In this document: in pieces, positions 10,296 through 32,973 of the stretch
Layout of the letters: each line of letters begins with the position of its first letter
Position numbering within the stretch: the stretch's first letter is position 1
NCBI GenBank assembly: GCA_021647205.1
Contig: JAKIVD010000003.1
Coordinates: 62,001 to 126,000 of the forward strand
Origin: Bacteroidales bacterium
Lineage (GTDB): Bacteria > Bacteroidota > Bacteroidia > Bacteroidales > F082
Reading direction: 5' to 3'
Length of the DNA stretch: 64,000 nt
Made by a program: the position numbers and the translations under genes
Notes under the pieces: model-generated
What the model was told of the DNA's origin: nothing
Seen by the model: only the letters and a program-made list of their open reading frames with translations
Database searches by the model: none

Positions 10296-10446
10296 GATTG
10301 GATGGTTTGATTGGTTGATTGTTTGATGGTTTGATTGTTTGATTGTTTGATTGTTTGATTGTTTGATTGTTGGATTGTTGGATTGTTGGATTGTTGGATT
10401 GTTGGATTGTTGGATTGTTGGATGGTTGGATGGTTGGATTGTTGGT
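10296..10446. repeat. 8-bp tandem repeat array (GATTGTTT / GATTGTTG)
   Basis: About 18 head-to-tail copies of an octamer start a few bases after the flavin reductase-rubredoxin stop. The left half is mostly GATTGTTT and the right half mostly GATTGTTG, with a few GATGGTTT and GATGGTTG variants. The same octamer family, in the opposite orientation, occurs at 30028-30128. Confidence 0.9.
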
Positions 10447-10483
10447 GGTTGACGACTGTAGACTGCTGAATAATAGTAAAAAG

Positions 10484-10514
10484 ACCTTCCAGCGTTCGCA
10501 GAACCTGGAAGAGT
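10484..10514. repeat. solitary REP-like palindrome
   Basis: CTTCCAG, 12 bases, CTGGAAG: the same palindrome, with the same AGAGT flank, that makes up the arrays around the RAYT transposase at 20845. It stands alone just upstream of rubrerythrin. Confidence 0.75.
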
Positions 10515-10556
10515 CCATAGTTAAAGACTAAATTTACAAACCCTAAAAAAAATACC

Positions 10557-19146: not shown

Positions 19147-19905
19147 TTAAAAACTTAGCTTTTCGATGTATTGATGAGCGGTAAAATCATATTGAACAGG
19201 AACCACAGAAACATAATTCTCGGCGAGGGCTTTCTCGTCGGTATTCGACCGCCCGTCGCCATTTTCAAAACGCCCACCCAGCCAATAATATTTTCTTCCG
19301 TAAGGGTCGGTACGCTCATCAAATTCCTCTACCCAACGGGCTTCTGCCTGCCGGCAAACTTTAATACCTTTGAGGGGCTCACCTGAAATCTTCGGGAAAT
19401 TCACATTCAGGCTTACCCCTTTGGGCAGTCCTTCATCCAGTACTTTGTTTGTAATTTTCAGGATGAAATTATCGGTGTGGCTGAAATCGGCATCTGCACT
19501 GAAATCCTGAAGCGAAAATCCGATAGCCGGGATATTATCAATGGAAGCTTCCAAAACAGCACCCATGGTTCCCGAATAAATAATATTGATGGAGGCATTG
19601 GAACCGTGGTTGATACCTGAAACAACAAGGTCAGGAGTGCGGTCAAGCAAGCGATGTTTCCCCAATTTTACATTATCAACGGGTGTACCGTTGGTGATGA
19701 ATTCTTGATATTCTTTTTCGCTGTGCAGCAAACGGGGGCGCAAGGGGGTTTGGATGGTTACGGCATGGCCCATTCCCGACATGGGGAATTCAGAGGCAAT
19801 AACCACGACCTCACCTAATCCGCGCATGATTGCAATGAGTTTTCGCAAACCAGTGGCCTGGATGCCGTCGTCGTTGGTTACTAATATTAAGGGTTTATTT
19901 TTCAT
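19147..19905 (-). CDS. surE: 5'/3'-nucleotidase SurE
   Basis: A 252-residue metal-dependent nucleotidase. The N-terminal ILVTNDDGIQATGL (about 6-19) carries the metal-binding Asp pair. SGMGHAVTIQTPLR (about 43), VSGINHGSN (about 94) and YSGTMGAVLEA (about 108) are family motifs. It dephosphorylates nucleoside monophosphates in stationary phase in other bacteria. It is first in surE-[membrane protein]-lpxB and has its own -7 box upstream. Confidence 0.96.
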   Translation of the reverse strand: MKNKPLILVTNDDGIQATGLRKLIAIMRGLGEVVVIASEFPMSGMGHAVTIQTPLRPRLLHSEKEYQEFITNGTPVDNVKLGKHRLLDRTPDLVVSGINHGSNASINIIYSGTMGAVLEASIDNIPAIGFSLQDFSADADFSHTDNFILKITNKVLDEGLPKGVSLNVNFPKISGEPLKGIKVCRQAEARWVEEFDERTDPYGRKYYWLGGRFENGDGRSNTDEKALAENYVSVVPVQYDFTAHQYIEKLSF

Positions 19906-19972
19906 GTATCGTTTTTAGAAACGCAGCAGTTAGCTTCATCAAATCAGTCAAACTGCCCAAGGTAAATCGCTG

Positions 19973-19980
19973 CAAAGATA
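19973..19980 (-). promoter_or_regulatory. -7 box of surE
   Basis: The minus strand reads TATCTTTG, exact TAnnTTTG, 67 bases before the surE ATG and just past the maf stop. No clear -33 element. Confidence 0.5.
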
Positions 19981-20019
19981 GGCTAGTTTTCCAATCGAGA
20001 TATCGCTGACAAGACTGGC

Positions 20020-20604
20020 TTAAAACAACATCAGTTCCTCGTACAGCCGATGCGTGGGCAAACCCATTACGTTGAAGTAGGAGCCTTCGATACGCTCGAT
20101 GGCGGCGTGGCCGATCCATTCCTGGATACCGTAAGCACCGGCTTTGTCGTAAGGTTTGAATGTATCCACATAGAATTCTATTTCTTCGTTTGAGAGCATT
20201 TTGAAATACACATCAGTGATCACCGAAAAAACAGTCTGTTTATGCTTTGAACGCAATGTGACTCCGGTAATTACCTGATGTTTCTTTCCTGATAGTTGTT
20301 TAAGAATTTGAATGGCATCTTCCCGTCCTCCGGGTTTACCCAAAATTCTACCCTCCAGGGTAACGATGGTATCCGCGGTAATAATGAGGCTTCGTTCGTC
20401 GCGCTCATTTTCTAAAAAAGCATCGGCTTTAAGCGCACTCAGGTAAACCGCTACTTCTTCTGGTTTTAAATCGGCGGGGAATGCCTCTTCCACATTTTTT
20501 GTGCGCACCGTGAAAAGAATGCCCAATTCTTCCAGCAGTTGTTTCCTGCGTGGGGAAGCGGAAGCGAGAATGATATTGTATTTTTTGAGATGGTTTTTCA
20601 GCAT
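20020..20604 (-). CDS. maf: Maf-type nucleoside triphosphate pyrophosphatase
   Basis: A 194-residue house-cleaning pyrophosphatase acting on non-canonical or methylated nucleotides. The N-terminal ILASASPRRKQLLEELG (about 12-28) is the Maf signature. ITADTIVTLEGRILGKP (about 72-88) holds the catalytic Asp, and YDKAGAYGIQEWIGHAAIERIEGSY (about 150-174, in segments) is also typical. The ATG at 20604 is chosen over a TTG at 20622 that lies on the edge of a REP array. The gene is preceded directly by that array, so its own promoter is not obvious. Confidence 0.94.
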   Translation of the reverse strand: MLKNHLKKYNIILASASPRRKQLLEELGILFTVRTKNVEEAFPADLKPEEVAVYLSALKADAFLENERDERSLIITADTIVTLEGRILGKPGGREDAIQILKQLSGKKHQVITGVTLRSKHKQTVFSVITDVYFKMLSNEEIEFYVDTFKPYDKAGAYGIQEWIGHAAIERIEGSYFNVMGLPTHRLYEELMLF

Positions 20605-20620
20605 TTTTGAATTCTTTAAC

Positions 20621-20837
20621 AACCTTCCAGCGTTTGAAGAACCTGGAAGAGTTGTGGTTCATAAAATCAGACGCTTCCAGGAGTTGCGCACCCTGGAAGG
20701 TCTTGCAAACAACCTTCCAGCGTTTAAAAAACCTGGAAGAGTTGTGGTTCATAAATCAGACGCTTCCAGGAGCTGTGCACCCTGGAAGGTCTTGCAAACA
20801 ACCTTCCAGCGTTAAAAAAACCTGGAAGAGTTGTTCG
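20621..20837. repeat. REP array on the maf side of the RAYT gene
   Basis: Three palindromes of type A (CTTCCAG, about 12 bases with CGTTT or CGTTA, CTGGAAG, AGAGTTGT) at about 20622, 20712 and 20801 alternate with two of type B (CTTCCAG, GAGTTGCGCACC-like loop, CTGGAAG) at about 20673 and 20763. The A-B unit repeats every 89-90 bp. The A and B linkers (TGGTTCATAAA, TCTTGCAAACA) are also conserved. This is a BIME-like layout. Confidence 0.9.
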
Positions 20838-20844
20838 TTTAAAG

Positions 20845-21507
20845 TTAGTCTATCAATAAATCATCAATCAAAGAAAATTCGTGCTCCTCCTGATGAAAGA
20901 AAACAAAATTCCCCAAGTCATCAAACCAATCAATTACTTTCTTCACATCAATAATTGTTGACTGCCCTTCTATAAAATCAAGATATGATGTCCATTGATA
21001 GGATGTATATTTTTTTACTATTCCATGATGCAAAGGATTATGATGGATGTAATAAACCAAATGTGTGAGGTAGTGTTCATTTTCCACTTCCTTTCTCCTA
21101 AAACCCTTCTCAAACAAGCCTCCCGTACGATGGTATTTATTGTTAAACCACTTTGAATATGCGTTGAACAAATGAGAGAATTGCCGTGACGGATTGGGCT
21201 TTTTTAGTTTATTTCCGACAATATCAAGCGGCGATGCTTCTTCTGAGAAGACCACTTTCCATTTTTCAATTTTATTTGATCCCGTTAAATGAACTAAAAA
21301 ACCGATCTCGTTTTCATCTTTTATTCGAACCAAAAAATGAAAATGGTTATTCATCAGCGTCCAAGCGTAGGTATCTGCGATGAGAGGAATGTATTTTTTA
21401 TACAGTTCCAGGAAATGTTCGTAATCCTCTTTTTGATTAAATATTTTAGCACTATCGATGCCTCTGTTGAAAATGTGATAATACGATCCGAATTCTAATA
21501 TTGCCAT
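20845..21507 (-). CDS. REP-associated tyrosine transposase (RAYT, Y1_Tnp domain)
   Basis: A 220-residue HUH single-strand nuclease of the IS200-like Y1 family. The N-terminal YYHIFNRGIDSAKIF (about 9-23) is typical of RAYTs. The HUH pair is His55/His57 in NNHFHFLVRI, and the likely catalytic Tyr is Tyr117 in NAYSKWFN. YIHHNPLHHG (about 154-163) and SYQWTSYLDF follow. RAYTs cut and join REP palindromes. The gene lies between two arrays of one palindrome family, exactly the expected setting. It interrupts a colinear minus-strand group (UbiA on one side, maf on the other). Confidence 0.93.
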   Translation of the reverse strand: MAILEFGSYYHIFNRGIDSAKIFNQKEDYEHFLELYKKYIPLIADTYAWTLMNNHFHFLVRIKDENEIGFLVHLTGSNKIEKWKVVFSEEASPLDIVGNKLKKPNPSRQFSHLFNAYSKWFNNKYHRTGGLFEKGFRRKEVENEHYLTHLVYYIHHNPLHHGIVKKYTSYQWTSYLDFIEGQSTIIDVKKVIDWFDDLGNFVFFHQEEHEFSLIDDLLID

Positions 21508-21512
21508 GGTTA

Positions 21513-21520
21513 CAAATTTA
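21513..21520 (-). promoter_or_regulatory. -7 box of the RAYT gene
   Basis: The minus strand reads TAAATTTG, exact TAnnTTTG, only 5 bases before the ATG at 21507. If used, the transcript would have almost no leader. Confidence 0.45.
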
Positions 21521-21525
21521 GTCAG

Positions 21526-21940
21526 ACTCTTCCAGGTGCTACATCAAACGCTTCCAGGTGCTGTGCACGCTGGAAGGTCTTGCAATACAACCTTCCAACG
21601 TTTGAAAAACCTGGAAGAGTTGTAGCTCATAAATCAGACGCTTCCAGGAGCTGCGCACCCTGAAAGGTCCTGCAAACAACCTTCCAGCGTTTGAAAAACC
21701 TGGAAGAGTTGTGGTTCATAAAATCAGACGCTTCCAGGAGCTGCGCACCCTGAAAGGTCCTGCAAACAACCTTCCAGCGTTTGAAGAACCTGGAAGAGTT
21801 GTAGCTCATAAATCAGACGCTTCCAGGAGCTGCGCACCCTGAAAGGTCCTGCAAACAACCTTCCAGCGTTTGAAGAACCTGGAAGAGTTGTGGTTCATAA
21901 AATCAGACGCTTCCAGGAGTTGCGCACCCTGGAAGGTCTT
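21526..21940. repeat. REP array on the UbiA side of the RAYT gene
   Basis: Four A-type palindromes (about 21590, 21680, 21770, 21859) alternate with five B-type ones (about 21550, 21640, 21729, 21818, 21908), preceded by one partial copy. The period is about 89-90 bp, as in the left array. Several B copies carry CTGAAAG instead of CTGGAAG in the right arm, so array members share mutations, which suggests expansion by unit duplication. The array ends 6 bases before the UbiA stop. Confidence 0.9.
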
Positions 21941-21945
21941 GGTTG

Positions 21946-22884
21946 TTAAAACTCAAAATAAAACAAAACCATCGACAAAACCCCGGCCAGCATTAAAAGT
22001 TTTATCAGGTTTGAGAGTTTCGCATAATCGCTTTTTTCTTTTGCTTGGAGCAGCCTGAGGATGGCAACGACGAACATGGCATCTATCACAAAGAAGAACG
22101 CAAACAAGAAGAAAAAGGATGCGGTGAAGAAATAATACTGAAACCAGAATGCGGCCAGTAAGCCGGCCAGGGCAATTCCCAAAGCCAGCTTTTGCGCTTT
22201 ATTTTTTCCGTAAACCACAGCAAAAGTCCGGCAGCCAAAACGGTCGTCGCCGGCAAAATCTTCGATGTCTTTTACGACTTCGCGCAACAGGCTCACCAGA
22301 AAAGCAAACCCCATGTAGATTAAAACCAGCCGGTTAACAAGGTGGAAATTAGCCTGGACTTCTGTGAAAATCTGCGCCTGATTACTGAGGGCAAAAAACT
22401 CAAACAGCCACACCAGACCAAAGGAAAGGGCACTCAGAACAGCAACGACCACATTACCCACCAACGGCTGACACTGGTATTTTTGGGAATAAAACCAAAG
22501 CAGTCCGGCCACAAACAAAAAAATAAGGGCATAATTGATTTGGTTGAGCAGGTAAGAAAACCAACTGCCCAACAGCACACCGGAAAGGGTGAACACCCAA
22601 TAGAGCGTATTGGTTGTAAAAACGGAGAACTTACCTCCCACCAGGTTCTTGCCGGGCTTGTTCACCGAATCGGCATTCATGTCAAAAAAGTCGTTGATAA
22701 GGTAGCCACCCATGGCCAGAAACAGGGTTGCCGCCACCAACAGGGTGAATTCCCAGACATCCATTCCGCCTTCAAACCAATCCAGTCCCAGGGCCGGGGA
22801 AATAACAAAAAACAGCAGCAATTTCATGCTGACAACAATCAGGAGCAGATTGGGCCAGCGGATGAGTTTGAGAAAGGAAAACAT
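21946..22884 (-). CDS. UbiA-family prenyltransferase (geranylgeranylglycerol-phosphate synthase-like)
   Basis: A 312-residue polytopic membrane protein with about nine helices. The two Asp-rich prenyl-diphosphate sites are NDFFDMNADSVNKPGKN (about 67-83) and VVKDIEDFAGDDRFGCRT (about 208-225). UbiA enzymes transfer prenyl chains to aromatic or lipid acceptors. Bacteroidota members of this type are usually named geranylgeranylglycerol-phosphate geranylgeranyltransferase, but the substrate is not proven. It follows kdsC on the same strand and has a -7 box just upstream. Confidence 0.85.
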   Translation of the reverse strand: MFSFLKLIRWPNLLLIVVSMKLLLFFVISPALGLDWFEGGMDVWEFTLLVAATLFLAMGGYLINDFFDMNADSVNKPGKNLVGGKFSVFTTNTLYWVFTLSGVLLGSWFSYLLNQINYALIFLFVAGLLWFYSQKYQCQPLVGNVVVAVLSALSFGLVWLFEFFALSNQAQIFTEVQANFHLVNRLVLIYMGFAFLVSLLREVVKDIEDFAGDDRFGCRTFAVVYGKNKAQKLALGIALAGLLAAFWFQYYFFTASFFFLFAFFFVIDAMFVVAILRLLQAKEKSDYAKLSNLIKLLMLAGVLSMVLFYFEF

Positions 22885-22893
22885 CTTTTATTT

Positions 22894-22901
22894 CAAATTT
22901 A
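22894..22901 (-). promoter_or_regulatory. -7 box upstream of UbiA-family gene
   Basis: The minus strand reads TAAATTTG, exact TAnnTTTG, 9 bases before the ATG at 22884. Confidence 0.4.
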
Positions 22902-22946
22902 ACACATTACAAAAACTTTAAAAAATCACTATGCGGTATTGGTCAT

Positions 22947-23468
22947 TTACCACCTAAACCCTTCCTCGCTCATCCATTTTCCCTGCACTTTCAGTACCTG
23001 TTCTATAATGTCGCGCACGCAACCCTCTCCCCCTTTTTTGTCGGAAATATAAATGGAGATATTTTTAATTTCTTCGGAAGCATCGGCAGGGCAACAGGGT
23101 ACGCCAACTTTCTGCATTACCTTAAAATCGGGGATGTCGTCGCCCATGTAAACCATCTTTTGCAGGTCCAGTTTATTTTTCCTGACGTATTCATCCAGCA
23201 CCTCCAGTTTGTTGCTTACACCGAGAAAGACCTCTTTTATTTTGAGTGCTTCAAAACGGTTCTCCACCGACTTTGAAATGCCCCCCGAAATAATCACCAC
23301 GCGATAACCCAGTCTTACAGCAAGTTGCAGCACGTATCCGTCTTTTACATTGGCCGAGCGAAGCGGGTTGCCTTCGTGTTGAAGTATCAGTTTTCCGTCG
23401 GTCATTACTCCGTCGTAATCGAAAATAAAAGTATCAACTTCCGTTAGTAAAGCTTTGTAATTACTCAT
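22947..23468 (-). CDS. kdsC: KdsC-like HAD phosphatase (KDO-8-phosphate phosphatase)
   Basis: A 173-residue HAD phosphatase without a cap domain. Motif I is FDYDGVMTDGKL (about 15-26), motif II IISGG (about 60), and motif III/IV VYMGDDIPDFKVM (about 106-118). It would release KDO for lipopolysaccharide core synthesis in the cytoplasm. The start overlaps the end of the DUF2520 gene by 8 bases, so they are coupled. With lpxB and a heptose kinase nearby it adds to a loose LPS theme. Confidence 0.92.
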   Translation of the reverse strand: MSNYKALLTEVDTFIFDYDGVMTDGKLILQHEGNPLRSANVKDGYVLQLAVRLGYRVVIISGGISKSVENRFEALKIKEVFLGVSNKLEVLDEYVRKNKLDLQKMVYMGDDIPDFKVMQKVGVPCCPADASEEIKNISIYISDKKGGEGCVRDIIEQVLKVQGKWMSEEGFRW

Positions 23469-24252
23469 TGTATTTCTTCTTAATTTGTGTTGAAAACAAG
23501 TGGTAAAGGGCTGCGGTTTCCGGAAAGCTTTTCAGCATTTCCAAATGTGTTTTTATCGTGGGTTCGTCTTTTCTCCTGGCAGGGCCTGTTTGTGCTTTTT
23601 TGGGAGAAATATCCTGAACCTTGGCAGCCGTTTCCCGAATCAGGGGCAGCAACAAAGAAAAATCGAGTTGCCTTCGCCCCAAATATTCTTGAGAATGCGC
23701 ATACAGGTGGTTTACAAAATTGCTCACCATTACCGCTGCCAGGTGAAGCTCTTTGCGTTGCTTCGAACTGATCAATTGTACTGAGCGACTCATTTTTCCT
23801 GCCAGTTGAAAAAGGCTTTTGCTTACACGCTCGTCAGAGCCTTCGATACAAAAAGGGGCATCCGAAATATCCATTCTTCGGTTGCGGGTAAAGGTTTGCA
23901 GGGGATAAAGAACACCAAACATATCCGCATCTTTCAGTGCATCCATTCCCGTAACACCGGAAGTGTGCACAACAATCCCGCGGATTTTTGGCAAAGCCTT
24001 CGCCACTTCTTCCACTTTAGCATCCGGCACTGCAATAATCAGCAAATTAACCTTGGGGTTTAATTCTTTAAGGTCTTTAGCCACATTGCACCCAAATTGT
24101 TCGGCAAACCGTTTTGCATGTGGTAATCGGGGCGAAAAAACTTCCTCAATCAAATGCCCCGAATTGTGCAGTGCCCTTGCCAGGTGGGTGGCCACATTCC
24201 CGGAGCCAATAAAACTGATGCTAAATATAGAATCTATCACTTTCAAACTCAC
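23461..24252 (-). CDS. Rossmann-like and DUF2520 domain protein
   Basis: A 263-residue protein. The N-terminal NAD(P)-binding fold has ISFIGSGNVATHLARAL (about 12-28) and LLIIAVPDAKVEEV (about 70). The C-terminal all-helical DUF2520 domain includes HLAAVMVSNFVNHLYA (about 170-185). Related to ketopantoate reductase-like enzymes, but the substrate is unknown. A GTG at 24252 is the likely start since no ATG fits. It precedes kdsC with an 8-base overlap. Confidence 0.88.
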   Translation of the reverse strand: MSLKVIDSIFSISFIGSGNVATHLARALHNSGHLIEEVFSPRLPHAKRFAEQFGCNVAKDLKELNPKVNLLIIAVPDAKVEEVAKALPKIRGIVVHTSGVTGMDALKDADMFGVLYPLQTFTRNRRMDISDAPFCIEGSDERVSKSLFQLAGKMSRSVQLISSKQRKELHLAAVMVSNFVNHLYAHSQEYLGRRQLDFSLLLPLIRETAAKVQDISPKKAQTGPARRKDEPTIKTHLEMLKSFPETAALYHLFSTQIKKKYNE

Positions 24253-24330
24253 ACATTTTCAAATTCCCAAACTCACACATTTTCAAATTCCCAAATTCAC
24301 CCATTTTCAAATTATCAAATTTTCAAATCC
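24253..24330. repeat. imperfect tandem repeat of about 25 bp
   Basis: Three imperfect copies of CACACATTTTCAAATTCCCA followed by AACT or AATT, then a decayed tail (TTTTCAAATTATCAAATTTTC). It fills the space between the DUF2520 start and the end of the DUF7935-like gene. Confidence 0.75.
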
Positions 24331-24892
24331 CCTTTCTGATTTCCTGTTTCAATCCTTCCAGTGCTTTTTCAACCGGATTGTCTTTGGCAGCAAACCCAAT
24401 CGTCAGCATTTCGGTGGCAAATTTTCCCGAATCTTCATCAGATCCAACCTTAGATGCCACGAGGTTAACCAGGCTGACCACCTCTTCTTTTGCCTTTTTA
24501 ACCAACACCCAGGCTGCATCAGTAATGTACAATTGTTGGGATAAATTGTGCTCATATTCATCGCGGATGCTCCGGTGCAATTGGGCCTGAAATCCGGCTG
24601 CACTTTGTCCCGGTGTCATCACTCGTGGGATGAGGTTGGGCGGATTGATGCGCTCTAAAAACAAAGCCATCCGTTCGTAAGCCTGGAAACGGATGGCCAT
24701 ACTGGTTTTCTCCGTTTGTTGTTTGCGGTCGATTTCCAGACGCAGTTTTAGCAAATCCTGTTCCCGGTTCAAAAATTCCATCTGGCGCAAATTCTGTTTC
24801 AAAAACTGTTTCATCAGGATGTAAACCACCAAAACAATCAGTGCTGAAGAAGCCAGAAATGCAAAAGTCAATACCAAACCATTCGTACTCAT
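24323..24892 (-). CDS. membrane-anchored coiled-coil protein (DUF7935-like)
   Basis: A 189-residue protein with an N-terminal membrane helix (residues 8-27), then a charged coiled coil (about 30-70) and a soluble domain with AIRFQAYERMALFLERINPPNLIPR (about 67-91, in segments) and EYEHNLSQQLYITDAAW (about 112-128). I recognise it as a conserved Bacteroidota family without known function. It heads the minus-strand group towards kdsC and is divergent from the aminotransferase gene. Confidence 0.75.
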   Translation of the reverse strand: MSTNGLVLTFAFLASSALIVLVVYILMKQFLKQNLRQMEFLNREQDLLKLRLEIDRKQQTEKTSMAIRFQAYERMALFLERINPPNLIPRVMTPGQSAAGFQAQLHRSIRDEYEHNLSQQLYITDAAWVLVKKAKEEVVSLVNLVASKVGSDEDSGKFATEMLTIGFAAKDNPVEKALEGLKQEIRKGI

Positions 24893-24955
24893 AATTATTT
24901 TTTTTAACTAAAGACAAGCAACTACAAATTAACAAACTATTTCGTAACAAAGCAG

Positions 24956-24963
24956 TATATTTG
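24956..24963 (+). promoter_or_regulatory. -7 box of the aminotransferase gene
   Basis: TATATTTG, exact TAnnTTTG, 27 bases before the ATG at 24991. Confidence 0.55.
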
Positions 24964-24990
24964 CCTCCTTAATTTTTTAAGCATCCGCAG

Positions 24991-26205
24991 ATGGATAAAA
25001 GCATATTAGCCAACAGAATCCTGAACATGTCAGAATCGGCGACCCTGAAAATGACCGGCCTGAGCCGCGACCTCAAAGCCAAAGGTGTTGACGTCATTAC
25101 CCTGAGCATTGGGGAGCCGGACTTTAATACACCCGAAAATGTAAAAGATGCCGCCAAAAAAGCCATCGACAACAACATTACACATTACCCCCCCGTACCG
25201 GGATTTCCTGCCTTGCGCCAGGCCATTGCCGATAAATTGAAACGTGACAACGGACTGGATTATAAAGCAAGTCAGATTGTGGTTTCTAACGGGGCAAAAC
25301 ATTCCATTGCCAATGTTTTTATGTGTATTTTGAACGAAGGCGACGAAGTTATTGTTCCTTCCCCCTACTGGGTTTCCTATCCGGAAATGATTAAAATGGC
25401 CGATGGAAGACCCGTTGTTATTGATGCAGGAATTGAAGCCGATTTTAAAATAACACCTGCGCAAATTGAAGCGGTAATCACCCCGAAAACCAAAGCCATT
25501 ATTTTCAGCTCGCCCAGCAATCCGACAGGCTCTTTGTACACAAAAGATGAATTAAAAGCGCTGGCCAATGTGTTTAAGGCCCACCCGGATATTTTGGTTA
25601 TTTCGGATGAAATTTACGAACTGATTATTTTCTCGGGAAAGCATGAAAGCATTGCCGCTTTTGAAGAAATTAAAGAGCAGGTGGTGGTGGTAAATGGCGT
25701 TTCCAAGGGCTTTGCCATGACGGGTTGGCGGATTGGCTACATTGCTGCACCCCAAATTATTGCCGATGCCTGCAATAAAATACAGGGGCAGTACACATCG
25801 GGGGCATCCGGTATTTCGCAAATGGCTGCTTTGGAGGCAATGAACAATCCACCGGAAAATTCGCCCGAACTCATGAAAATGGTGGCTGCTTTTAAAGAGC
25901 GTCGCGATTTGCTAATCCGTTTGGTAAAAGAAATTCCCGGTTTCAAAACCAACACGCCCGAAGGCGCTTTTTATCTTTTTCCGGATGTGAGTGCATATTT
26001 CGGGAAGAAGAACGGTACAACAACCATCAGCAACAGCAACGACCTTTGTTTGTATTTGCTTGACAAAGCACATGTGGCACTGGTTCCCGGCGAGGCTTTT
26101 GGCGCTCCCGAATGTATCCGGATTTCCTATGCCACTTCAACTGATAAAATTGAAGAGGCTGTAAAAAGAATAGCCACTGCCTGTAACAAACTAAACTCCC
26201 GGTGA
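24991..26205 (+). CDS. class I aminotransferase, aspartate aminotransferase type
   Basis: A 404-residue PLP enzyme of fold type I. LSIGEPDFNTPENVKDA (about 36-52), the Tyr/Asn region SSPSNPTGSLY (about 170-180) and the PLP Lys in NGVSKGFAMTGWRIGY (about 235-250) are all intact, with an Arg near the C-terminus (CIRISYA) for the alpha-carboxylate. It likely interconverts aspartate and oxaloacetate, though related aromatic aminotransferases cannot be excluded. The stop overlaps the GTG of the next gene by 4 bases. Confidence 0.93.
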   Translation: MDKSILANRILNMSESATLKMTGLSRDLKAKGVDVITLSIGEPDFNTPENVKDAAKKAIDNNITHYPPVPGFPALRQAIADKLKRDNGLDYKASQIVVSNGAKHSIANVFMCILNEGDEVIVPSPYWVSYPEMIKMADGRPVVIDAGIEADFKITPAQIEAVITPKTKAIIFSSPSNPTGSLYTKDELKALANVFKAHPDILVISDEIYELIIFSGKHESIAAFEEIKEQVVVVNGVSKGFAMTGWRIGYIAAPQIIADACNKIQGQYTSGASGISQMAALEAMNNPPENSPELMKMVAAFKERRDLLIRLVKEIPGFKTNTPEGAFYLFPDVSAYFGKKNGTTTISNSNDLCLYLLDKAHVALVPGEAFGAPECIRISYATSTDKIEEAVKRIATACNKLNSR

Positions 26206-28160
26206 AGGATTATTATTCGCGGATACTGGATTTGCTCAGGCGATTGGGCATCGCACTTTTATTGTTTAGCCTCACCCGCTTGTTTTTTTACTTTTTCAAC
26301 CTCTCCCTTTTTTCTGATATTCGTTTTACTGAATTACTAAAGGCATTTTTTGTTGGTATCCGCTTCGACATCTCGGTACTGGTTTATTTTAACCTGCCCA
26401 TCATCCTGATGCACTTAATTCCGCTTGGGAAAGTCTATCATTCAAAAACTTACCAGCAGATTATACTCTACTATTTTGTGATTGTGAATTCGTTGCTGTT
26501 GTTGATTAACCTTGGGGATGCTGTCTTTTACCATTTCACACTCAAGCGTTCCACCATCGATGTCGTCAAGTTTATTTTCATCAGCGGGGATGTACTGAAC
26601 CTGCTACCTGAATTTTTTCTGGACTACTGGTATATTTCACTTGTTTTCGTAGCAATAGTCATCACCCTTCGCATTCCTTTTCGCATCGACCGACCCAAAA
26701 AAACACAAACGCATTCCCTCAGCTTCAAATTATTCGCAAAGCAATTACTGGTGATGGTATTGACACTGATTGTGCTGATGATTGGCGCCAGAGGCGGGCT
26801 TCAGGGCATTCCTTTGAGCATCATGCATGCCAATGCCTCCACCAATGCCAAACTTTCGCCCCTTGTTTTGAATACCCCTTTTACCTTAATGAAAACTTTC
26901 AATGACGAAACCATCGCCATCCGGACTTATTTTCCGTCTGATGAAATTAAAAACTACTTTCAGGTTGTAAAAAATCCGTCCAACGATGGTGCTTTTAAAA
27001 ACAAAAACGTTGTCATTCTGTTGCTGGAAAGCTTTTCGAAAGAATATGTCGGGAGTTTGAATAATTACAAAGGATACACGCCATTCCTTGATTCTCTCAT
27101 CGGTCATTCCCTTGTTTTTACCAATGCTTTTTCCAATGGTTACCGTTCGATGGATGCCATGCCTGCCGTGCTGATGTCGATTCCCTGCCTGATGAACGAC
27201 CCCATCATTACTTCGGCCTACAGCACCAATAATTTTACTGCTTTGGCTAAATTATTGAAAACTAAATCGTATGCCACAGCATTTTTTCACGGCGGAAACC
27301 AAGGCACACTGGGATTGGACGGTTTTGCCAAATTAAGTGGATTTGACAATTATTTTGGGAGAACAGAATACAATAACGATGATGACTTTGATGGCAACTG
27401 GGGCATTTATGACGAACCCTTTTTACAATATGTTATTCAGCATATTGATTCTTTGCCCGAGCCTTTTTTTGTGACCGGGTTTACGCTGAGTTCGCACTAC
27501 CCTTACACACTTCCCGAGAAATACGAAAACAAATTTACCAAAGGCCCTTTGCGGATTCACAGGGTTGTACGCTACACCGACTTTGCTTTGCAAGGCTTTT
27601 TTGAAACAGCAAAAACAAAACCCTGGTTCAACAATACCATCTTCATTATTTCAGCCGACCATCCGGCACAGTCCGTCATTCCTTCAAAGGCGGGGAACAT
27701 CAACGGAAAAACCAATTTACCTGACAAAGAACTGCTCCAATATTATAAAAATTCGTCCGGAAGATATGCTATTCCCCTCCTGATTTATGCGCCCGGTGAC
27801 ACTACTCTGCAAGGGGAAATCACCACCACGATACAACAAACGGATGTGATGCCCACCATCCTGAACCTTTTGCATTTTGAAAAACCCTACATCGCCTTTG
27901 GAAATGATGTTTTTGACAGCACTGTCATTCATGCAGCTTTTCATTATTACAACGGACTTTATCAGATTACTTCCGGAGATTACTGCTTGATTTTTGATGG
28001 GGAAAAACCAATAGCCCTCTACGAAAAGAGTGATGTTGGCCATATAGATAATCTTCTGGAAAAAGAACCGGAAAAAACCCTGGAGCTGGAAAACATATTG
28101 AAAGCCTATTTGCAGGAATTCAGTCATCGCCTGCGTGAAAACAAACTGATGGTTGAGTAG
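26202..28160 (+). CDS. LtaS-like membrane phosphoethanolamine/glycerol transferase (sulfatase fold)
   Basis: A 652-residue protein with five N-terminal membrane helices (to about residue 205) and a periplasmic alkaline phosphatase/sulfatase-like domain. VVILLLESFSKEYVG (about 269) carries the first metal Glu. NGYRSMDAMPAVLMSIP (about 312-328) gives the likely nucleophile Ser, and ISADHP (about 485) a metal Asp/His. In Gram-negatives such enzymes modify glycans or LPS with phospholipid head groups rather than making lipoteichoic acid. GTG start overlapping the aminotransferase stop by 4 bases. Confidence 0.88.
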   Translation: MKDYYSRILDLLRRLGIALLLFSLTRLFFYFFNLSLFSDIRFTELLKAFFVGIRFDISVLVYFNLPIILMHLIPLGKVYHSKTYQQIILYYFVIVNSLLLLINLGDAVFYHFTLKRSTIDVVKFIFISGDVLNLLPEFFLDYWYISLVFVAIVITLRIPFRIDRPKKTQTHSLSFKLFAKQLLVMVLTLIVLMIGARGGLQGIPLSIMHANASTNAKLSPLVLNTPFTLMKTFNDETIAIRTYFPSDEIKNYFQVVKNPSNDGAFKNKNVVILLLESFSKEYVGSLNNYKGYTPFLDSLIGHSLVFTNAFSNGYRSMDAMPAVLMSIPCLMNDPIITSAYSTNNFTALAKLLKTKSYATAFFHGGNQGTLGLDGFAKLSGFDNYFGRTEYNNDDDFDGNWGIYDEPFLQYVIQHIDSLPEPFFVTGFTLSSHYPYTLPEKYENKFTKGPLRIHRVVRYTDFALQGFFETAKTKPWFNNTIFIISADHPAQSVIPSKAGNINGKTNLPDKELLQYYKNSSGRYAIPLLIYAPGDTTLQGEITTTIQQTDVMPTILNLLHFEKPYIAFGNDVFDSTVIHAAFHYYNGLYQITSGDYCLIFDGEKPIALYEKSDVGHIDNLLEKEPEKTLELENILKAYLQEFSHRLRENKLMVE

Positions 28161-28207
28161 TGCTTCAATAAAACCTTTAGCTACTTTCCCTAAAAATCAG
28201 CTTTTAT

Positions 28208-28215
28208 TACCTTTG
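28208..28215 (+). promoter_or_regulatory. -7 box of the heptose kinase gene
   Basis: TACCTTTG, exact TAnnTTTG, 19 bases before the ATG at 28235. The flanking TTATTACCTTTGC resembles the box at 9548. Confidence 0.6.
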
Positions 28216-28234
28216 CACTTCATAAAAAATAAAC

Positions 28235-29233
28235 ATGCTGACAACCGAACTGCTTTCAAGAATCTTTAATGGCTTTAACAACAAAACCATCCTCATTATT
28301 GGCGATGTGATGGTGGATGCTTATTTATGGGGGCATGTGGAACGGATTTCGCCGGAAGCCCCGGTACCCATTGTTTCTGTCGAAAAGCGGGAAAACAGGC
28401 TGGGCGGCGCTGCCAATGTGGGGCTGAATATCAGCTCGCTGGGCGCCGCTGCCATTATTTGTTCGGTGATTGGAAATGATGTAAAAGGTAACGAATTTCT
28501 TGCCCTGCTCGACGAAGAGGGGCTTAACTGCGAAGGAATTATTCAAAGCAGCAAACGTGTTACCACTACCAAATTCAGGGTAATTGGCAACAATACCCAA
28601 ATGCTGAGGGTGGATGAAGAAATTACCAGCGACCTGGAAAAAGAAGAAATGATTTTACTCCGGGAACGCATCACCGATATCTTCCGTAAAAAAAATATTG
28701 ACGCTGTTATTTTCCAGGATTACGACAAAGGAACAATCAACGGACAACTCATTTCATCGGTAGTGGAAATGGCAAGCAGTAAAAATATTCCTGTGATTGT
28801 TGATCCGAAAAAGAAAAATTTCCTTAGCTATAAAAATGTTACGCTTTTCAAACCCAACCTGAAAGAAATCAAAGAAGGGCTGAATATCAGTTTCGACGCC
28901 AACAATATCGATGAAGTGAAAACGGCCGTCGCTAAGTTACAGGCCCTTCTGAAAGCAGAAATGGTACTAAACACCCTGTCGGAAAACGGGGTGTTTATTC
29001 AATGGGCAAAGGGTTCTGAAATTATTCCTGCCCACTACCGCACTATTGTTGATGTTTCGGGTGCCGGCGATACGGTTATCAGCGTGGCTGCGCTGTGCCT
29101 GGCCTCCGAAATGGAAGCCCCCGACCTGGCCGCACTGGCCAATCTTGCCGGCGGTATTGTTTGCGAAGAAGTGGGTGTAGTCCCCATCAACAAAACCAAA
29201 TTTCAGGACGAAGCCATCAGGTTGTTGGCCTGA
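28235..29233 (+). CDS. rfaE1: D-glycero-beta-D-manno-heptose-7-phosphate kinase
   Basis: A 332-residue PfkB-family kinase corresponding to the first domain of HldE. ISPEAPVPIV and RLGGAANVGLNI (about 38-60) are the sugar-binding signature. FQDYDKGTI (about 165), the VDPKK strand (about 188) and the catalytic DVSGAGDTVISV (about 272-283) are intact. It makes heptose 1,7-bisphosphate for the LPS inner core. The adenylyltransferase domain is not fused and must be encoded elsewhere, as is common in Bacteroidota. Confidence 0.94.
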   Translation: MLTTELLSRIFNGFNNKTILIIGDVMVDAYLWGHVERISPEAPVPIVSVEKRENRLGGAANVGLNISSLGAAAIICSVIGNDVKGNEFLALLDEEGLNCEGIIQSSKRVTTTKFRVIGNNTQMLRVDEEITSDLEKEEMILLRERITDIFRKKNIDAVIFQDYDKGTINGQLISSVVEMASSKNIPVIVDPKKKNFLSYKNVTLFKPNLKEIKEGLNISFDANNIDEVKTAVAKLQALLKAEMVLNTLSENGVFIQWAKGSEIIPAHYRTIVDVSGAGDTVISVAALCLASEMEAPDLAALANLAGGIVCEEVGVVPINKTKFQDEAIRLLA

Positions 29234-29305
29234 TTTGGTTTTATTTCTATTGCATCAATCAGGGAAACAAGAGATATTGAAATTTGGAAAAGAAAATCTG
29301 AATCA

Positions 29306-30022
29306 TTGAAAAATAACGAAAATATAAAGGGCAGTAAAAAGCAAAAGGTAGAAGCCATGTTCGACAACATTGCCCACCGCTACGATTTCCTGAATCATTT
29401 TTTATCGGCAGGAATTGATATCCAATGGCGGAAAAAAGTACGACGCTTGCTGGCGCCACACCACCCCAAACAAATTCTTGACGTTGCAACCGGCACCGGT
29501 GACCTGGCCGTTGAACTGGTAAAACTGAAACCCGGCCACATCGTTGGTGTTGACATTTCAGAAGGCATGCTCAATATCGGCAAAGAAAAAATAGCCCGGA
29601 AAAAACTTGACAAAATTATTACGCTCGAAGTCGGCGACTCGGAAAACCTGCGCTTCGAATCCAATAATTTTGATGCGGTGACCGTCGCTTTTGGTGTCCG
29701 AAATTTTGAAAACCTGCAAGCCGGCCTGAAAGAAATGAACCGTGTGTTAAAACCCGGCGCTAGGGTGGCCATCCTCGAATTCTCAAAGCCCAAGAAATTT
29801 CCCTTCAAAAATATCTACCAGTTTTATTTTAAATTCATCCTGCCCGGTTTCGGAAAAATAGTCTCCAAAGACAACGAGGCCTACACCTACCTTCCCGAAT
29901 CGGTTCAGCAGTTTGCCGAAGACACTGCCTTTTTGAAGGAAATGGAAAGCGCCGGATTTAGGAATAACAAGCAACAAAGGCTGACTTTTGGAATAGCAAC
30001 TCTATATTCCGGAACAAAGTAA
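29306..30022 (+). CDS. menG: demethylmenaquinone methyltransferase
   Basis: A 238-residue SAM methyltransferase (UbiE/MenG). VEAMFDNIAHRYDFLNHFLS (about 15-34) and the SAM site ILDVATGTGDLAVELV (about 57-72) are diagnostic, as are FGVRNFENLQAGLKEMNRVLKPG and the FYFKFILPGFG segment near 175. It completes menaquinone, the likely quinone substrate of Nqr. No ATG precedes the conserved N-terminus, so the TTG at 29306 is taken as start. It is followed by porT, a pairing I recall as conserved in the phylum. Confidence 0.95.
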   Translation: MKNNENIKGSKKQKVEAMFDNIAHRYDFLNHFLSAGIDIQWRKKVRRLLAPHHPKQILDVATGTGDLAVELVKLKPGHIVGVDISEGMLNIGKEKIARKKLDKIITLEVGDSENLRFESNNFDAVTVAFGVRNFENLQAGLKEMNRVLKPGARVAILEFSKPKKFPFKNIYQFYFKFILPGFGKIVSKDNEAYTYLPESVQQFAEDTAFLKEMESAGFRNNKQQRLTFGIATLYSGTK

Positions 30023-30027
30023 CACAA

Positions 30028-30128
30028 CCATCAAACAGTCAAACCATCAAACAGTCAAACCATCAAACCATCAAACAGTCAAACAGTCAAACCATCAAAC
30101 AGTCAAACCATCAAACAGTCAAACCGTC
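30028..30128. repeat. 8-bp tandem repeat array (AAACAGTC / AAACCATC)
   Basis: About 12 head-to-tail octamers, alternating AAACAGTC and AAACCATC, begin just after the menG stop. Their complement is GACTGTTT/GATGGTTT, so this is the same octamer family as at 10296-10446 in the opposite orientation. Confidence 0.9.
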
Positions 30129-30139
30129 CAATATTTTAC

Positions 30140-30147
30140 TAATTTTG
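30140..30147 (+). promoter_or_regulatory. -7 box upstream of porT
   Basis: TAATTTTG, exact TAnnTTTG, 65 bases before the porT start and directly after the octamer array. This would let porT be transcribed apart from menG. Confidence 0.5.
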
Positions 30148-30212
30148 CGCCTCATTTTTTATGGCAAATACTATTCAAAGCATTCAGACGTTAAGTTAAA
30201 AATTATTTCAGT

Positions 30213-30983
30213 TTGAGAAAAGCAACAATTATAGCAACAGTCCTTATTTTTGCCGCCTTACTATTTAACAAACAGGCTTCTGCTCAAAAAAGAAAGGTGT
30301 TTAACATGCCTTCTTACGATGAGCAGCTCTTCCACCCGGGCTTTTTCTTGGGGATAAACCAAATGCTGTTCAGTGTAAAAACCGTTGACAGCCTTCCGTT
30401 TATTAAATGGGAGCAGGAACAGTCGCCCGATATTTTTGCCGATTCCCTTTTTGTTCAAAGCGTTACTTCAACACCTACACCAGGATTCACCATCGGCATT
30501 GTGGCGAACCTCAGGGTGGCAAAAAACCTCGACTTCCGCTTTGTCCCCTCCCTGTCCTTTGGGGAAAGGTTGCTGAATTACAATATCCTGTCATATGACG
30601 AAGGGAATACACAAGTGATTGAAACGCAAAAAAGCATCACTTCAACTACAGTTGATTTCCCCTTTCTTTTTAAGTACAAGTCCAAACGCCTGAACAATAT
30701 GCGCATGTATGTTCTGGCCGGTGCCAAATACAGCCTCGACCTGGCTTCGCAGAAAAAAGCACAAAAGAACAGCAGCGATATTACCGTTAAAATTAAGAAA
30801 CACGATATTGCCCTCGAAGCGGGGGCCGGCGTGGACTTTTATGCCGACCTTTTTAAATTTGGCATCGAACTTAAAATGGGCTATGGGTTTTTCAACATGA
30901 TCAAGCAGGAAGGAAACCTTTATACCGACAGTATCGAAAGGCTCAACTCAAAGGTCTTTATGCTGTCGTTTACATTTGAATAA
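30213..30983 (+). CDS. porT: PorT family type IX secretion/outer-membrane barrel protein
   Basis: A 256-residue outer-membrane protein with signal peptide (residues 1-24, ...ASAQ). HPGFFLGINQMLFSV (about 41-55), GFTIGIVANLRVAKNLDFRF (about 90-109, in segments), SITSTTVDFPFLFKYKS and the terminal VFMLSFTFE show the eight-strand PorT barrel. PorT is needed for the type IX secretion system. Position after menG supports PorT over other small barrels. The start is TTG at 30213. Confidence 0.85.
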   Translation: MRKATIIATVLIFAALLFNKQASAQKRKVFNMPSYDEQLFHPGFFLGINQMLFSVKTVDSLPFIKWEQEQSPDIFADSLFVQSVTSTPTPGFTIGIVANLRVAKNLDFRFVPSLSFGERLLNYNILSYDEGNTQVIETQKSITSTTVDFPFLFKYKSKRLNNMRMYVLAGAKYSLDLASQKKAQKNSSDITVKIKKHDIALEAGAGVDFYADLFKFGIELKMGYGFFNMIKQEGNLYTDSIERLNSKVFMLSFTFE

Positions 30984-30984
30984 A

Positions 30985-31689
30985 ATGGCAAAAAAAGCCT
31001 CAGAAACCCGCTCAGGGCAGGATCAGCTTTTCGAAGAGCTTATCGGAAAAGCCGAACTAAAACAGCTTGTTTACCGCAATACACTAGAGGCTTTCAAGCT
31101 GATCAAAGAAAACATCAACCATTTGGTTGCAGATTACAATAACTATTGCGAACTCAAAAAGGTAAAACAACCCATCCCCTTTGTGGCTAAAGAAACAGGT
31201 GATTTTCAAACAGAGTTGAAATTTGCCGGCGATTTGTTGCTCTTTAACATGCACACCAATATTTTCGAGTTCCCCCGTCAGCATGAAATCTTGCGCAGTT
31301 CCTATGTAAAAGCGGACAAAAGCAGGTCGTATTGCGGGATGATCAACATCTATAATTTTCTTTCCGATTCGTTTAAATACAACCGCGTAAACGATTCGGG
31401 CTACCTGATTGGACGCATCTTCGTGAACAAAGACATGAGCTATTTTATTGAAGGAAAGCGCGAACTTGGTTTTCTGTTCAATAATTTCGGGAAGACCCTT
31501 CTCGACAAGGAAAAAGCCAGAACGATTGTTGAGGCTGCCATTTCTTACACCATTCATTTCGATTTGTTGACCCCGCCATACGAGCAGATGAAAGTTGTGA
31601 GCGTGAATGAGATGAAGAACACGCTGGATGCCATCTCGCTGAAAACAGGCAAGCGACTGGGTTTTCAATTCCAGGCTGACCAGGCTTAG
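30985..31689 (+). CDS. conserved protein of unknown function downstream of porT
   Basis: A 234-residue soluble protein with no signal peptide or membrane segment. I do not recognise its family. The N-terminal part is helical (LFEELIGKAELKQLVYRNT). The centre is rich in aromatic residues (LLLFNMHTNIFEFPRQH about 85-101, YCGMINIYNFLSDSFKYN about 118-135). The ATG at 30985, 1 base after the porT stop, is preferred over a TTG at 30976. Cotranscription with porT suggests, but does not show, a link to secretion. Confidence 0.75.
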   Translation: MAKKASETRSGQDQLFEELIGKAELKQLVYRNTLEAFKLIKENINHLVADYNNYCELKKVKQPIPFVAKETGDFQTELKFAGDLLLFNMHTNIFEFPRQHEILRSSYVKADKSRSYCGMINIYNFLSDSFKYNRVNDSGYLIGRIFVNKDMSYFIEGKRELGFLFNNFGKTLLDKEKARTIVEAAISYTIHFDLLTPPYEQMKVVSVNEMKNTLDAISLKTGKRLGFQFQADQA

Positions 31690-31823
31690 CGAACAGAAAA
31701 GATACAGCCCGTTTGGCACCCCTCCCCCTGCCTGTTCTGCGCATAGCTCCCGACATCAAACCTGGAATCCCACTCCCTCTTTTCCCGGCTTTGAAGATAT
31801 GCCCGGTTTTTTTTCATAAAAAC

Positions 31824-31852
31824 TTGGTCAATTAAAATATTTTCTATTTTTG
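31824..31852 (+). promoter_or_regulatory. promoter of tRNA-Glu
   Basis: TTG at 31824-31826, 18 bp, then TATTTTTG at 31845-31852: both Bacteroidota promoter elements, 19 bases before the tRNA. Confidence 0.75.
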
Positions 31853-31871
31853 CAGCCGCAATTGACACCAT

Positions 31872-31945
31872 GGTCCGTTCGTCTAGCCAGGTCAGGACGC
31901 CAGGTTTTCATCCTGGTAACACGGGTTCGAATCCCGTACGGACTA
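31872..31945 (+). tRNA. tRNA-Glu (UUC)
   Basis: A 74-nt cloverleaf: acceptor GGTCCGT/ACGGACT (first pair G-T), anticodon arm CCAGG-TTTTCAT-CCTGG giving TTC, T arm ACGGGTTCGAATCCCGT. CCA is not encoded. It has its own promoter and a strong terminator. Confidence 0.95.
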
Positions 31946-31946
31946 C

Positions 31947-31985
31947 AAAAACCCCCTAAAAACAATGTTTTGCGGGGGTTTTCCT
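31947..31985 (+). terminator. terminator of tRNA-Glu
   Basis: AAAAACCCCC (31947-31956) pairs with GGGGGTTTT (31974-31982), followed by more T. It starts two bases after the tRNA. Confidence 0.85.
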
Positions 31986-32038
31986 TTCTACTGCACTGGT
32001 TAATGGCGTCGCCTTGCTTAACCTTAAAAATGCAAATA

Positions 32039-32695
32039 ATGAAAACAGAAAACCTTCACCTGCTGTTAGGCATCAGAAACTTAACTGATTCAACTTATAT
32101 TTTAGAAGTGGAACGAAAAGGCCTTGATTTTGAACCGGGGCAACACATCCTGATGGGCAGGGCCGACAGCATTCATAAACGCGAATACTCCATTTACAGT
32201 GGGAACAATGACAAATATCTGGAACTGTTAATCAAAGAAGTTGAAGAAGGCCTCGTGTCCATTAACCTTAAAAAACTTTCGGATGGCGATCAGGTTGAAA
32301 TTGAGGGGCCATTGGGCTTTTTCGGACTTGACGAAAAAGCGGTCGAACAAAAAAAGAAATTTCTGTTTGTGGCCAGCGGAACGGGAATCGCCCCCTTTCA
32401 CAGCATGGTAAAAAGTATTCCCAACCTGGATTACACCCTTTTGCATGGTGTCAGATACGCAAGCGAAGCTTACGAAAAAGAAGCCTACGACCGGGAGAAA
32501 TACATCCTGTGCACAACCGGCGACAAAGACGGCGACTTTCATGGCCGGGTTACCGATTACATCAAACAACATCAATTTGATAAAGACACGATTTGCTACT
32601 TTTGCGGTAACTTCAACATGATAAAAGATGCAATGGACCTGCTTTCAAAAAAAGGATTTCCTTCGGGTCAATTGCATGCTGAGGTTTATTTTTGA
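32039..32695 (+). CDS. ferredoxin-NADP reductase-like FAD oxidoreductase
   Basis: A 218-residue FNR-fold protein. The N-terminal FAD barrel has FEPGQHILMG (about 31) and REYSIYSG (about 48-55), the RxYS motif. The NADP domain has LFVASGTGIAPFHSMV (about 108) and YFCGNFNMIKDAMDLL near the C-terminus. It is shorter than classical Fpr (about 250). It could exchange electrons between NAD(P)H and ferredoxin or flavodoxin. The frame stays open upstream through the tRNA, but the ATG at 32039 is the only sensible start. Confidence 0.85.
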   Translation: MKTENLHLLLGIRNLTDSTYILEVERKGLDFEPGQHILMGRADSIHKREYSIYSGNNDKYLELLIKEVEEGLVSINLKKLSDGDQVEIEGPLGFFGLDEKAVEQKKKFLFVASGTGIAPFHSMVKSIPNLDYTLLHGVRYASEAYEKEAYDREKYILCTTGDKDGDFHGRVTDYIKQHQFDKDTICYFCGNFNMIKDAMDLLSKKGFPSGQLHAEVYF

Positions 32696-32698
32696 CAG

Positions 32699-32960
32699 CC
32701 GGCCTTCCAGCGTGCCTGCACCTGGAAGAGCCTGAAATGATGAAACACAACGCTTCCAGGTTCTGCAAACAATGGAAGGTTGTTTAAAAGGCCTTCCAGC
32801 GTGCCTGCACCCGGAAGAGCCTGAAATGAGGAAACACAACGCTTCCAGGTTCTGCAAACACTGGAAGGTTGTTTAAAAGGCCTTCCAGCGTGCCTGCACC
32901 TGGAAGAGTCTGAAATGATGAAACACAACGCTTCCAGGTTATGCAAACACGGGAAGGTTG
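32699..32960. repeat. REP-like array, second variant
   Basis: Three units with an 89 bp period (32701, 32790, 32879). Each has an A-type palindrome CTTCCAG, CGTGCCTGCAC, CTGGAAG (one copy CCGGAAG), then AGAGCCTGAAATGA, then a B-type one CTTCCAG, GTTCTGCAAACA, CTGGAAG with decay in two copies. Stems equal those of the arrays at 20621 and 21526, but loops and linkers differ. It fills the space between the FNR-like gene and the MiaB-like gene. Confidence 0.9.
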
Positions 32961-32973
32961 AATAACAGAAACC

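Follow-up and report, generated by a model that had tools for sequence, protein, structure and literature searches.

A REP-associated transposase gene flanked on both sides by BIME arrays of its probable cognate hairpin in a Bacteroidales genome

The stretch of Bacteroidales DNA analysed here, 64 kb long and called the window below, contains what we read, with a probability of about 85%, as a REPtron: a REP-associated HUH/Y1 transposase (RAYT) together with its cognate REP hairpins, which are organised in BIMEs on both sides of the gene. The system is of a known kind, a REPtron of Bacteroidetes type with double-bulged REPs that do not bear the GT[AG]G tag. Its variant features are the design of the REP, the number of private RAYT/REP pairs and the instability of the RAYT site. 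The elements of the locus and its surroundings are as follows.

20848-21507 (open reading frame 20845-21507), minus strand: RAYT, a TnpAREP-like HUH/Y1 transposase of 220 aa with H55/H57 and the probable catalytic Y153 in YIHHNP.
20619-20833, unstranded: left BIME array of five REPs in the order - + - + -, from covariance-model matches at 20619-20654 (-), 20669-20704 (+), 20709-20744 (-), 20758-20793 (+) and 20798-20833 (-).
~21526-21543, plus strand: half REP lying between the start codon of the RAYT and the array to its right, recognised in the sequence as an inverted-repeat arm.
21546-21940, unstranded: right BIME array of nine REPs in the order + - + - + - + - +, from covariance-model matches at 21546 (+), 21587 (-), 21636 (+), 21676 (-), 21726 (+), 21766 (-), 21815 (+), 21855 (-) and 21905-21940 (+).
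32699-32961, unstranded: third BIME array of six REPs in the order - + - + - +, directly upstream of a UPF0004-domain gene, which we take to be MiaB-like.
10481-10516, minus strand: single dispersed REP, found by pattern and covariance model.
20607-21945 (boundaries approximate), unstranded: insert missing from the maf-ubiA junction of relatives.
20020-20604, minus strand: maf-like gene (PF02545), left neighbour of the insert.
21946-22884, minus strand: UbiA-family prenyltransferase gene (PF01040), right neighbour of the insert.

The original prediction, made from the sequence of the window, described a HUH/Y1 transposase bracketed by arrays of one palindrome family, and this description holds: the 220-aa reading frame is flanked by 5 + 9 copies, ten of which match the CTTCCAG pattern exactly and four inexactly (three B copies end in CTGAAAG and one A copy starts with CTTCCAA). 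The layout given there, A-B-A-B-A on one side and about four and a half A-B units on the other at a period of 89-90 bp per REP pair, corresponds to the five REPs of the left array and to the nine REPs plus half copy on the right. The exact pattern CTTCCAG-N11-13-CTGGAAG occurs 14 times in the whole 64-kb window, with 0 matches expected from 100 shuffles, and the covariance model returns 21 strong matches, among them the third array and the single copy at 10481-10516. Next to the latter, at 10300-10450, short tandem repeats of the TTTGATTG/TTGGATTG type form a long stretch. A comparison of the arrays around the RAYT, the array at 32699 and one on contig C28 showed that the spacers are private to each array. 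An Rfam scan of 19800-33300 yielded, at gathering scores, nothing but one tRNA.

A and B had been taken for two loop types, from which a dimeric substrate was proposed, with one enzyme reading two hairpin types. They are instead one directional imperfect REP hairpin, present in two subtypes and inverted relative to each other, and the dimeric substrate gives way to the same REP in inverted copies. Since A and B are opposite orientations of one REP and alternate regularly, the arrays qualify as classical BIMEs. When all copies are read in the same direction, a typical one has the form [G/A]AC-(T/G bulge)-CTTCCAG-Gnnn-loop-nnnC-(mostly G bulge)-CTGGAAG-GT[C/T], with two bulges, a variable inner stem and a loop of about 3 nt. 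The A copies, on the minus strand, belong to the AAC/GTT subtype and the B copies, on the plus strand, to the GAC subtype (GAC/GTC), except for the B copy at 21546, which has AAC; differences between the subtypes concern the outer 3 bp, the bulge and also the inner stem. The pairing of the feet is retained outside the three arrays of the window: in a flank table of 52 GAC and 27 AAC copies, which leaves out the 20 copies of these arrays, core-less copies and 14 copies with other feet, GAC goes with GTC in 46 cases and with GTT in 0, and AAC with GTT in 21 and with GTC in 3.

The two arms of the inner stem change together, one base pair being GC 33 times, CG 32 times and UA 27 times. In an alignment (A2) of 115 REP matches, 103 of them distinct, which was fitted to the structure of the model and whose shuffles ignore relatedness, 94.4% of the cells over the whole structure are paired as compared with 87.3% after shuffling, double-change cells number 119 versus 40.2, and covariation amounts to 0.224 versus 0.092; for each of the three measures, 0 of 500 shuffles gave a value as high. 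Sliding the partners along the alignment left at most 53.5% paired. The count of pairs with any both-side change is a weak measure of covariation; it gave 6 versus 4.2 shuffled, a value reached in 23 of 500 shuffles, and 7 when the partners were slid by one.

The flanks of the 79 non-array copies have no GT[AG]G consensus, so the hairpin is not a canonical GTAG-tagged REP; CA or AC precede the stem, and GT[AG]G lies near either end in 8 of 124 REP copies. The four bases before the core (n=112) are GACT in 40 copies, AACT in 21, GACG in 19 and AACG in 12. The hairpin is a REP in the wide sense, that is, a dispersed, extragenic and directional imperfect palindrome of 20-40 bp, and its arrays have the regular spacing and alternating REP orientation of BIMEs.

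Dispersal of the probable REP target was confirmed by a count over the whole genome. The exact CTTCCAG pattern has 83 copies in 3.53 Mb, with 0 for a reversed-pattern control, and a covariance model built from 16 copies locates no fewer than 124 places, grouped in 75 clusters, a lower bound given that 150 of 2215 candidates were scored (131 model rows were reduced to these places by hand, dropping six opposite-strand readings and one partial match). Because these copies extend beyond the region of the transposase gene, the assignment of a RAYT with cognate REPs and BIMEs is well supported. With extragenic defined as outside open reading frames of at least 90 aa, annotation not being used, 108 of the 124 copies are extragenic, compared with 87% of random 36-mers from the same loci falling in open reading frames. 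Single copies make up 49 of the 75 clusters, the others being pairs or local arrays, and 14 of the 18 isolated pairs are - + inverted. In this last respect they resemble Pseudomonas REPINs, whose dispersed unit is an inverted REP pair (PMC3116915 and PMC8049555, both in part), although the single copies that prevail here set the two apart.

The placement of these copies bears on a rival explanation, in which the palindromes terminate transcription or stabilise mRNA 3' ends and were spread by selection or gene conversion, the transposase being among them by chance. The gaps that hold the 108 extragenic copies, 87 tandem, 19 convergent and 2 divergent, agree with such a function, as does the good folding of both strands of the REP; rarity in divergent gaps is, however, known for REPs in general (PMC3733652, in part). 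The other RAYTs of the same genome speak against it as well. Two further ones, L017 (G000:C41:66500-67054) and L018 (G000:C22:123637-124176), whose best segments are 42-43% identical to the window RAYT, are flanked by palindromes that differ from CTTCCAG and are of the ACCCGGCGGGT and GCTAAG/CTTAGC types. The GACCCGNCGGGTT pattern has 38 genomic matches (control none), 11 of them at the C41 RAYT, and GCTAAGN6-16CTTAGC has 13 (control 1), including 3 at the C22 RAYT; a pattern search of these two loci found no CTTCCAG hairpin. Each of the three RAYTs in the genome is flanked by its own dispersed palindrome family and not by those of the others.

Recurrent hairpins adjoin the RAYTs of other genomes too, and they follow the RAYT tree. 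Bulged CTTCCAG flanks are found in four RAYTs, which group in a single clade (support 93/98). On the tree of 31 RAYTs, the hairpin label changes 11 times as compared with 20.5 for shuffled labels, and 0 of 200 shuffles were as low, the labels being hand-assigned and near-copies making them cluster. The 31 rows are the 33 RAYT loci minus L038, a fragment, and L039, which has no open reading frame by motif; four are labelled none. Private families and the clustering on the RAYT tree led us to reject simple terminators as the whole story, and we consider the terminator explanation very improbable.

The association was followed in 119 genomes, the source genome (G000) included. A homologue (E<=0.001) is present in 60 of them; at least one exact CTTCCAG hairpin occurs in 26 and none in 93, and the reversed-pattern control gave one match each in 3 genomes. 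A RAYT of the window's clade was found in three of the 119, with 83 exact copies in the source genome and 28 each in G018 and G052, whose RAYTs are 56% and 55% identical to that of the window. Exact copies are also found where no RAYT of this clade was detected: 38 in G002, which belongs to the same genus as the source genome, 10 in G003, 7 each in G060 and G061, and 5 in G026. The original prediction had named the same arrays in relatives that lack the transposase as evidence against it; the copies in G002 and G003 partly answer to this, though the RAYT could have been lost there or the repeat-flanked gene could have failed to assemble. Copy number rises with presence of a RAYT of the clade (one-sided rank test 3e-5, kinship ignored), an association confounded by kinship, as the five genomes with most copies represent two genera.

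One of the four RAYTs in the bulged-CTTCCAG clade, L062 (JAADJA010000053.1), is the one relative that came from a wider contig scan. It is 55% identical, has CTTCCAG hairpins and sits in a MAG labelled Chlorobiota, by horizontal transfer or mis-binning. CTTCCAG palindromes also accompany two RAYTs outside the clade, lying on either side of the gene in G036 and within it in G095. In the latter (L028, G095:C14, open reading frame 1477-2151) a CTTCCAG hairpin pair lies within the RAYT gene and the flanks carry CTGACAG palindromes; that genome has only two exact CTTCCAG hairpins. In four other RAYTs of relatives (L034, L035, L048 and L051), palindromes of the flanking family lie in frame between the HUH and Tyr motifs and are translated, for instance, as NLTGFQNLSG or NLQGFQNLEG, reminiscent of subclass 2.4 described below. 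The G036 RAYT (L030, G036:C76) lies between two CTTCCAG palindromes that have no bulge; its genome has no other exact ones, and the arrangement looks like an unamplified, IS-like state.

This G036 arrangement is among the observations favouring another rival, in which the unit is an ordinary IS200/IS605-like element with ends that are repeated by chance; this would also accommodate the HUH/Y1 family of the enzyme, the palindromes on both sides and the different RAYT locus in different relatives. Yet the window RAYT gene has one copy in the genome, the next homologues being 42-43% identical in their best segments, against at least 124 hairpins, and the motifs NHFH and YIHxNP are of the TnpAREP and not the TnpAIS200 type (PMC6006769, in part). 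Membership in IS200/IS605 in the sense of several near-identical copies of the gene unit was rejected on the same single-copy ground, and we hold the insertion-sequence explanation to be unlikely.

The window protein scores 23.5 bits against Pfam Y1_Tnp (cut-off 23) and 45.8 bits against NCBIfam REP_Tyr_transpos; the latter is under the equivalog cut-off of 80 and counts against the assignment. In an alignment of the window's sequence with 27 others (28 in all), H55, H57, Y117, Y153, N157 and P158 are invariant, and S174 likewise; the catalytic motifs of the family, HUH and single-Tyr (YIxxNP), are present and separated by a variable insert of about 40 residues. A profile of the 28 sequences matches E. 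coli TnpAREP 4ER8 with E=7.5e-6, and it is Tyr153, not Tyr117, that aligns with the YIxxNP motif of 4ER8. Of the active-site residues first proposed, His55 and His57 stand (H55-F-H57), and Tyr117, invariant as Tyr153 is, was rejected as the catalytic residue on account of this alignment; it was probably misassigned, the role probably belonging to Tyr153. Enzyme activity is predicted. An AlphaFold2 model of the window protein with L062 was poor (mean pLDDT 50), a single-protein phmmer search against solved structures gave no relevant match, and a plasmid search with the window RAYT gave four remote matches of 25-31% identity. A Pfam Y1_Tnp search of the source genome matched four other loci, the window RAYT not among them; L022 and L023 (G000:C33 and C12) have scores of 84 and 72 bits, far above that of the RAYT, and possibly represent other Y1 transposase classes.

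In Gammaproteobacteria, RAYTs flanked by BIMEs and the co-evolution of RAYTs with REPs are established (PMC2817692 and PMC8266576, both in part), and to that extent the literature agrees with the original prediction. The E. coli REPtron (TnpAREP/RayT, yafM, with Y/Z2 REPs in BIME-2) shares with the present system a HUH/Y1 enzyme that the profile matches through 4ER8, BIMEs of two REP subtypes on both sides of the gene (PMC2817692, in part) and an imperfect palindrome with a bulge (PMC8266576, in part). A RAYT between two sets of BIMEs is thus the arrangement of E. coli. In contrast to E. coli, the present REPs have no GTAG foot consensus, two bulges and a different stem, three RAYT/REP pairs lie on different contigs of one genome, the enzyme has the variable insert of about 40 residues, and the RAYT site is not common to relatives. 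As for Bacteroidota, where the original prediction called a long, ordered A/B array less well described, subclass 2.6 of TnpAY1 (RAYT group 5), from Bacteroidetes, already has REP-like structures without GT[AG]G and with copies elsewhere in the genome (PMC6006769, in part).

By the motif descriptions of PMC6006769, two subclasses come closest, and the window RAYT agrees with each in part. With subclass 2.6 the window RAYT has in common the lack of a GT[AG]G consensus, the dispersed copies and a C-terminal serine motif (S174 here), but it has NHFH and YIHHNP where the table there gives NH[LIV]H and YIH[QN]NP. Subclass 2.4 (RAYT group 4), from Bacteroidetes and Cyanobacteria, with REPs inside the gene, is similar in NH[IFV]H, in a variable HUH-Tyr insert and in the in-frame palindromes of some relatives' RAYTs; it differs in its GT[AG]G foot, in its YIxNNP motif, for which the window RAYT has YIHHNP, and in its in-gene REPs, none of which was seen in the window RAYT. 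CGTC-tagged REPs, reported from Bacteroidetes and other phyla with no adjoining transposase gene (PMC3733652, in part), are also short palindromes and often inverted dimers, and GACG-footed copies read as CGTC on the other strand. Those REPs, however, have an unpaired tag, an 8-9 bp stem and a 4-5 nt loop (same source, in part). Membership among them was rejected: here the foot pairs with GTC/GTT, GACG is found in 19 of 112 copies only, and a RAYT is present. For Chryseobacteria, RAYTs near a resistance gene have been described (PMC11194056, in part).

The site occupied by the RAYT varies among relatives. The maf-ubiA junction is without RAYT and REP core in seven of eight relatives, the eighth (G002) being unassembled there, with absence judged by the core pattern and boundaries taken from direct reading, as the global alignment was scattered. 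The gap between the gene matches measures 12-36 bp in relatives and 287 bp in G018, and in G052 the kdsC-ubiA gap next to it holds one REP. Because these junctions are free of REPs, the window site looks like a gain of the RAYT. At the site of the third array, six REPs in G000 correspond to one - + pair in G002 and to none in G001 and G018 (G003 could not be aligned at this locus). In G000, G018 and G052, which have the closest RAYTs, the gene is found at three different loci. The place of the G018 RAYT is taken in G061 by a bare - + REP pair, and that of the G052 RAYT in G003 by a - + pair. With the closest RAYTs at different loci and REP-only sites in sister species, the RAYT therefore has no fixed place in the genomes compared.

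Two histories fit this pattern, a REP-bounded unit that moves or several ancestral copies followed by loss. The second would explain the sites in G000, G018 and G052 by differential loss through recombination between flanking direct REPs, with no movement of the gene, and it is compatible with the REPtron explanation. We regard it as a serious possibility, if somewhat short of an even chance. The G018 RAYT is indeed flanked by two - REPs in direct orientation, the - + pairs of G061 and G003 occupy the RAYT places, and the RAYT identity of G000 to G018 and G052, at 55-56%, comes near the values for ubiA (62 and 52%) and maf (65-66%) but falls short of those for SurE (75-78%); the maf-ubiA junctions of seven relatives without the REP core speak against it.

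A common plan underlies the hairpins of different RAYTs. The bulged frame [G/A]AC-N-CTnnnnn...nnnnnAG-GT[C/T] has 34 matches, spread over 10 of the 33 RAYT loci. They contain 8 blocks; counting one stem that can be read in two ways only once gives 6 stems, of which one (L029) is represented by a single match. The frame without the outer bulge has 38 matches at 13 of the 33 loci, with 4 blocks; its matches are symmetric and hence counted on both strands. Neither frame was matched in 20 shuffles that move pairs of bases. These matches suggest a constant frame with a short swappable block of about 5 nt that may serve as an address for RAYT recognition. The broader proposal, of a lineage with this shared frame and address in which the RAYT gene travels between sites as a REP-bounded unit, is tentative, and we judge it possible rather than probable; it departs from the account of RAYTs as single-copy, vertically inherited genes (PMC8049555, in part). 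In a literature search judged by titles and abstract openings, no description turned up of the hairpin frame or of several private pairs per Bacteroidota genome.

As a mechanism for the REPtron, we propose that the RAYT would bind the REP strand folded as single-stranded DNA, reading its bulges and stem, and would cut beside the hairpin with Tyr153. Inverted REP pairs, as REPIN-like units, may thereby be copied or moved into gaps between genes. Tandem duplication of a single - + unit has probably built up the ordered arrays in place, since their spacers are private to each array and the third array has one unit in G002 and three in G000. The RAYT gene would probably be such a unit as well, seated in a - + spacer, because the - + alternation continues across the gene.

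How REPs spread is an unsettled question, and the work on REP recognition considered here concerns GTAG-tagged pairs of Proteobacteria (PMC8266576, in part). The three RAYTs of one genome with their private families, along with related hairpins of one frame and different short blocks, constitute a ready set for swapping address and enzyme, and the empty and REP-only sites in sister species provide before/after junctions for the arrival or loss of REP pairs, of arrays and of the RAYT gene. At G000:C3:60459-60687, each of the three REP families of the source genome is represented within about 230 bp.
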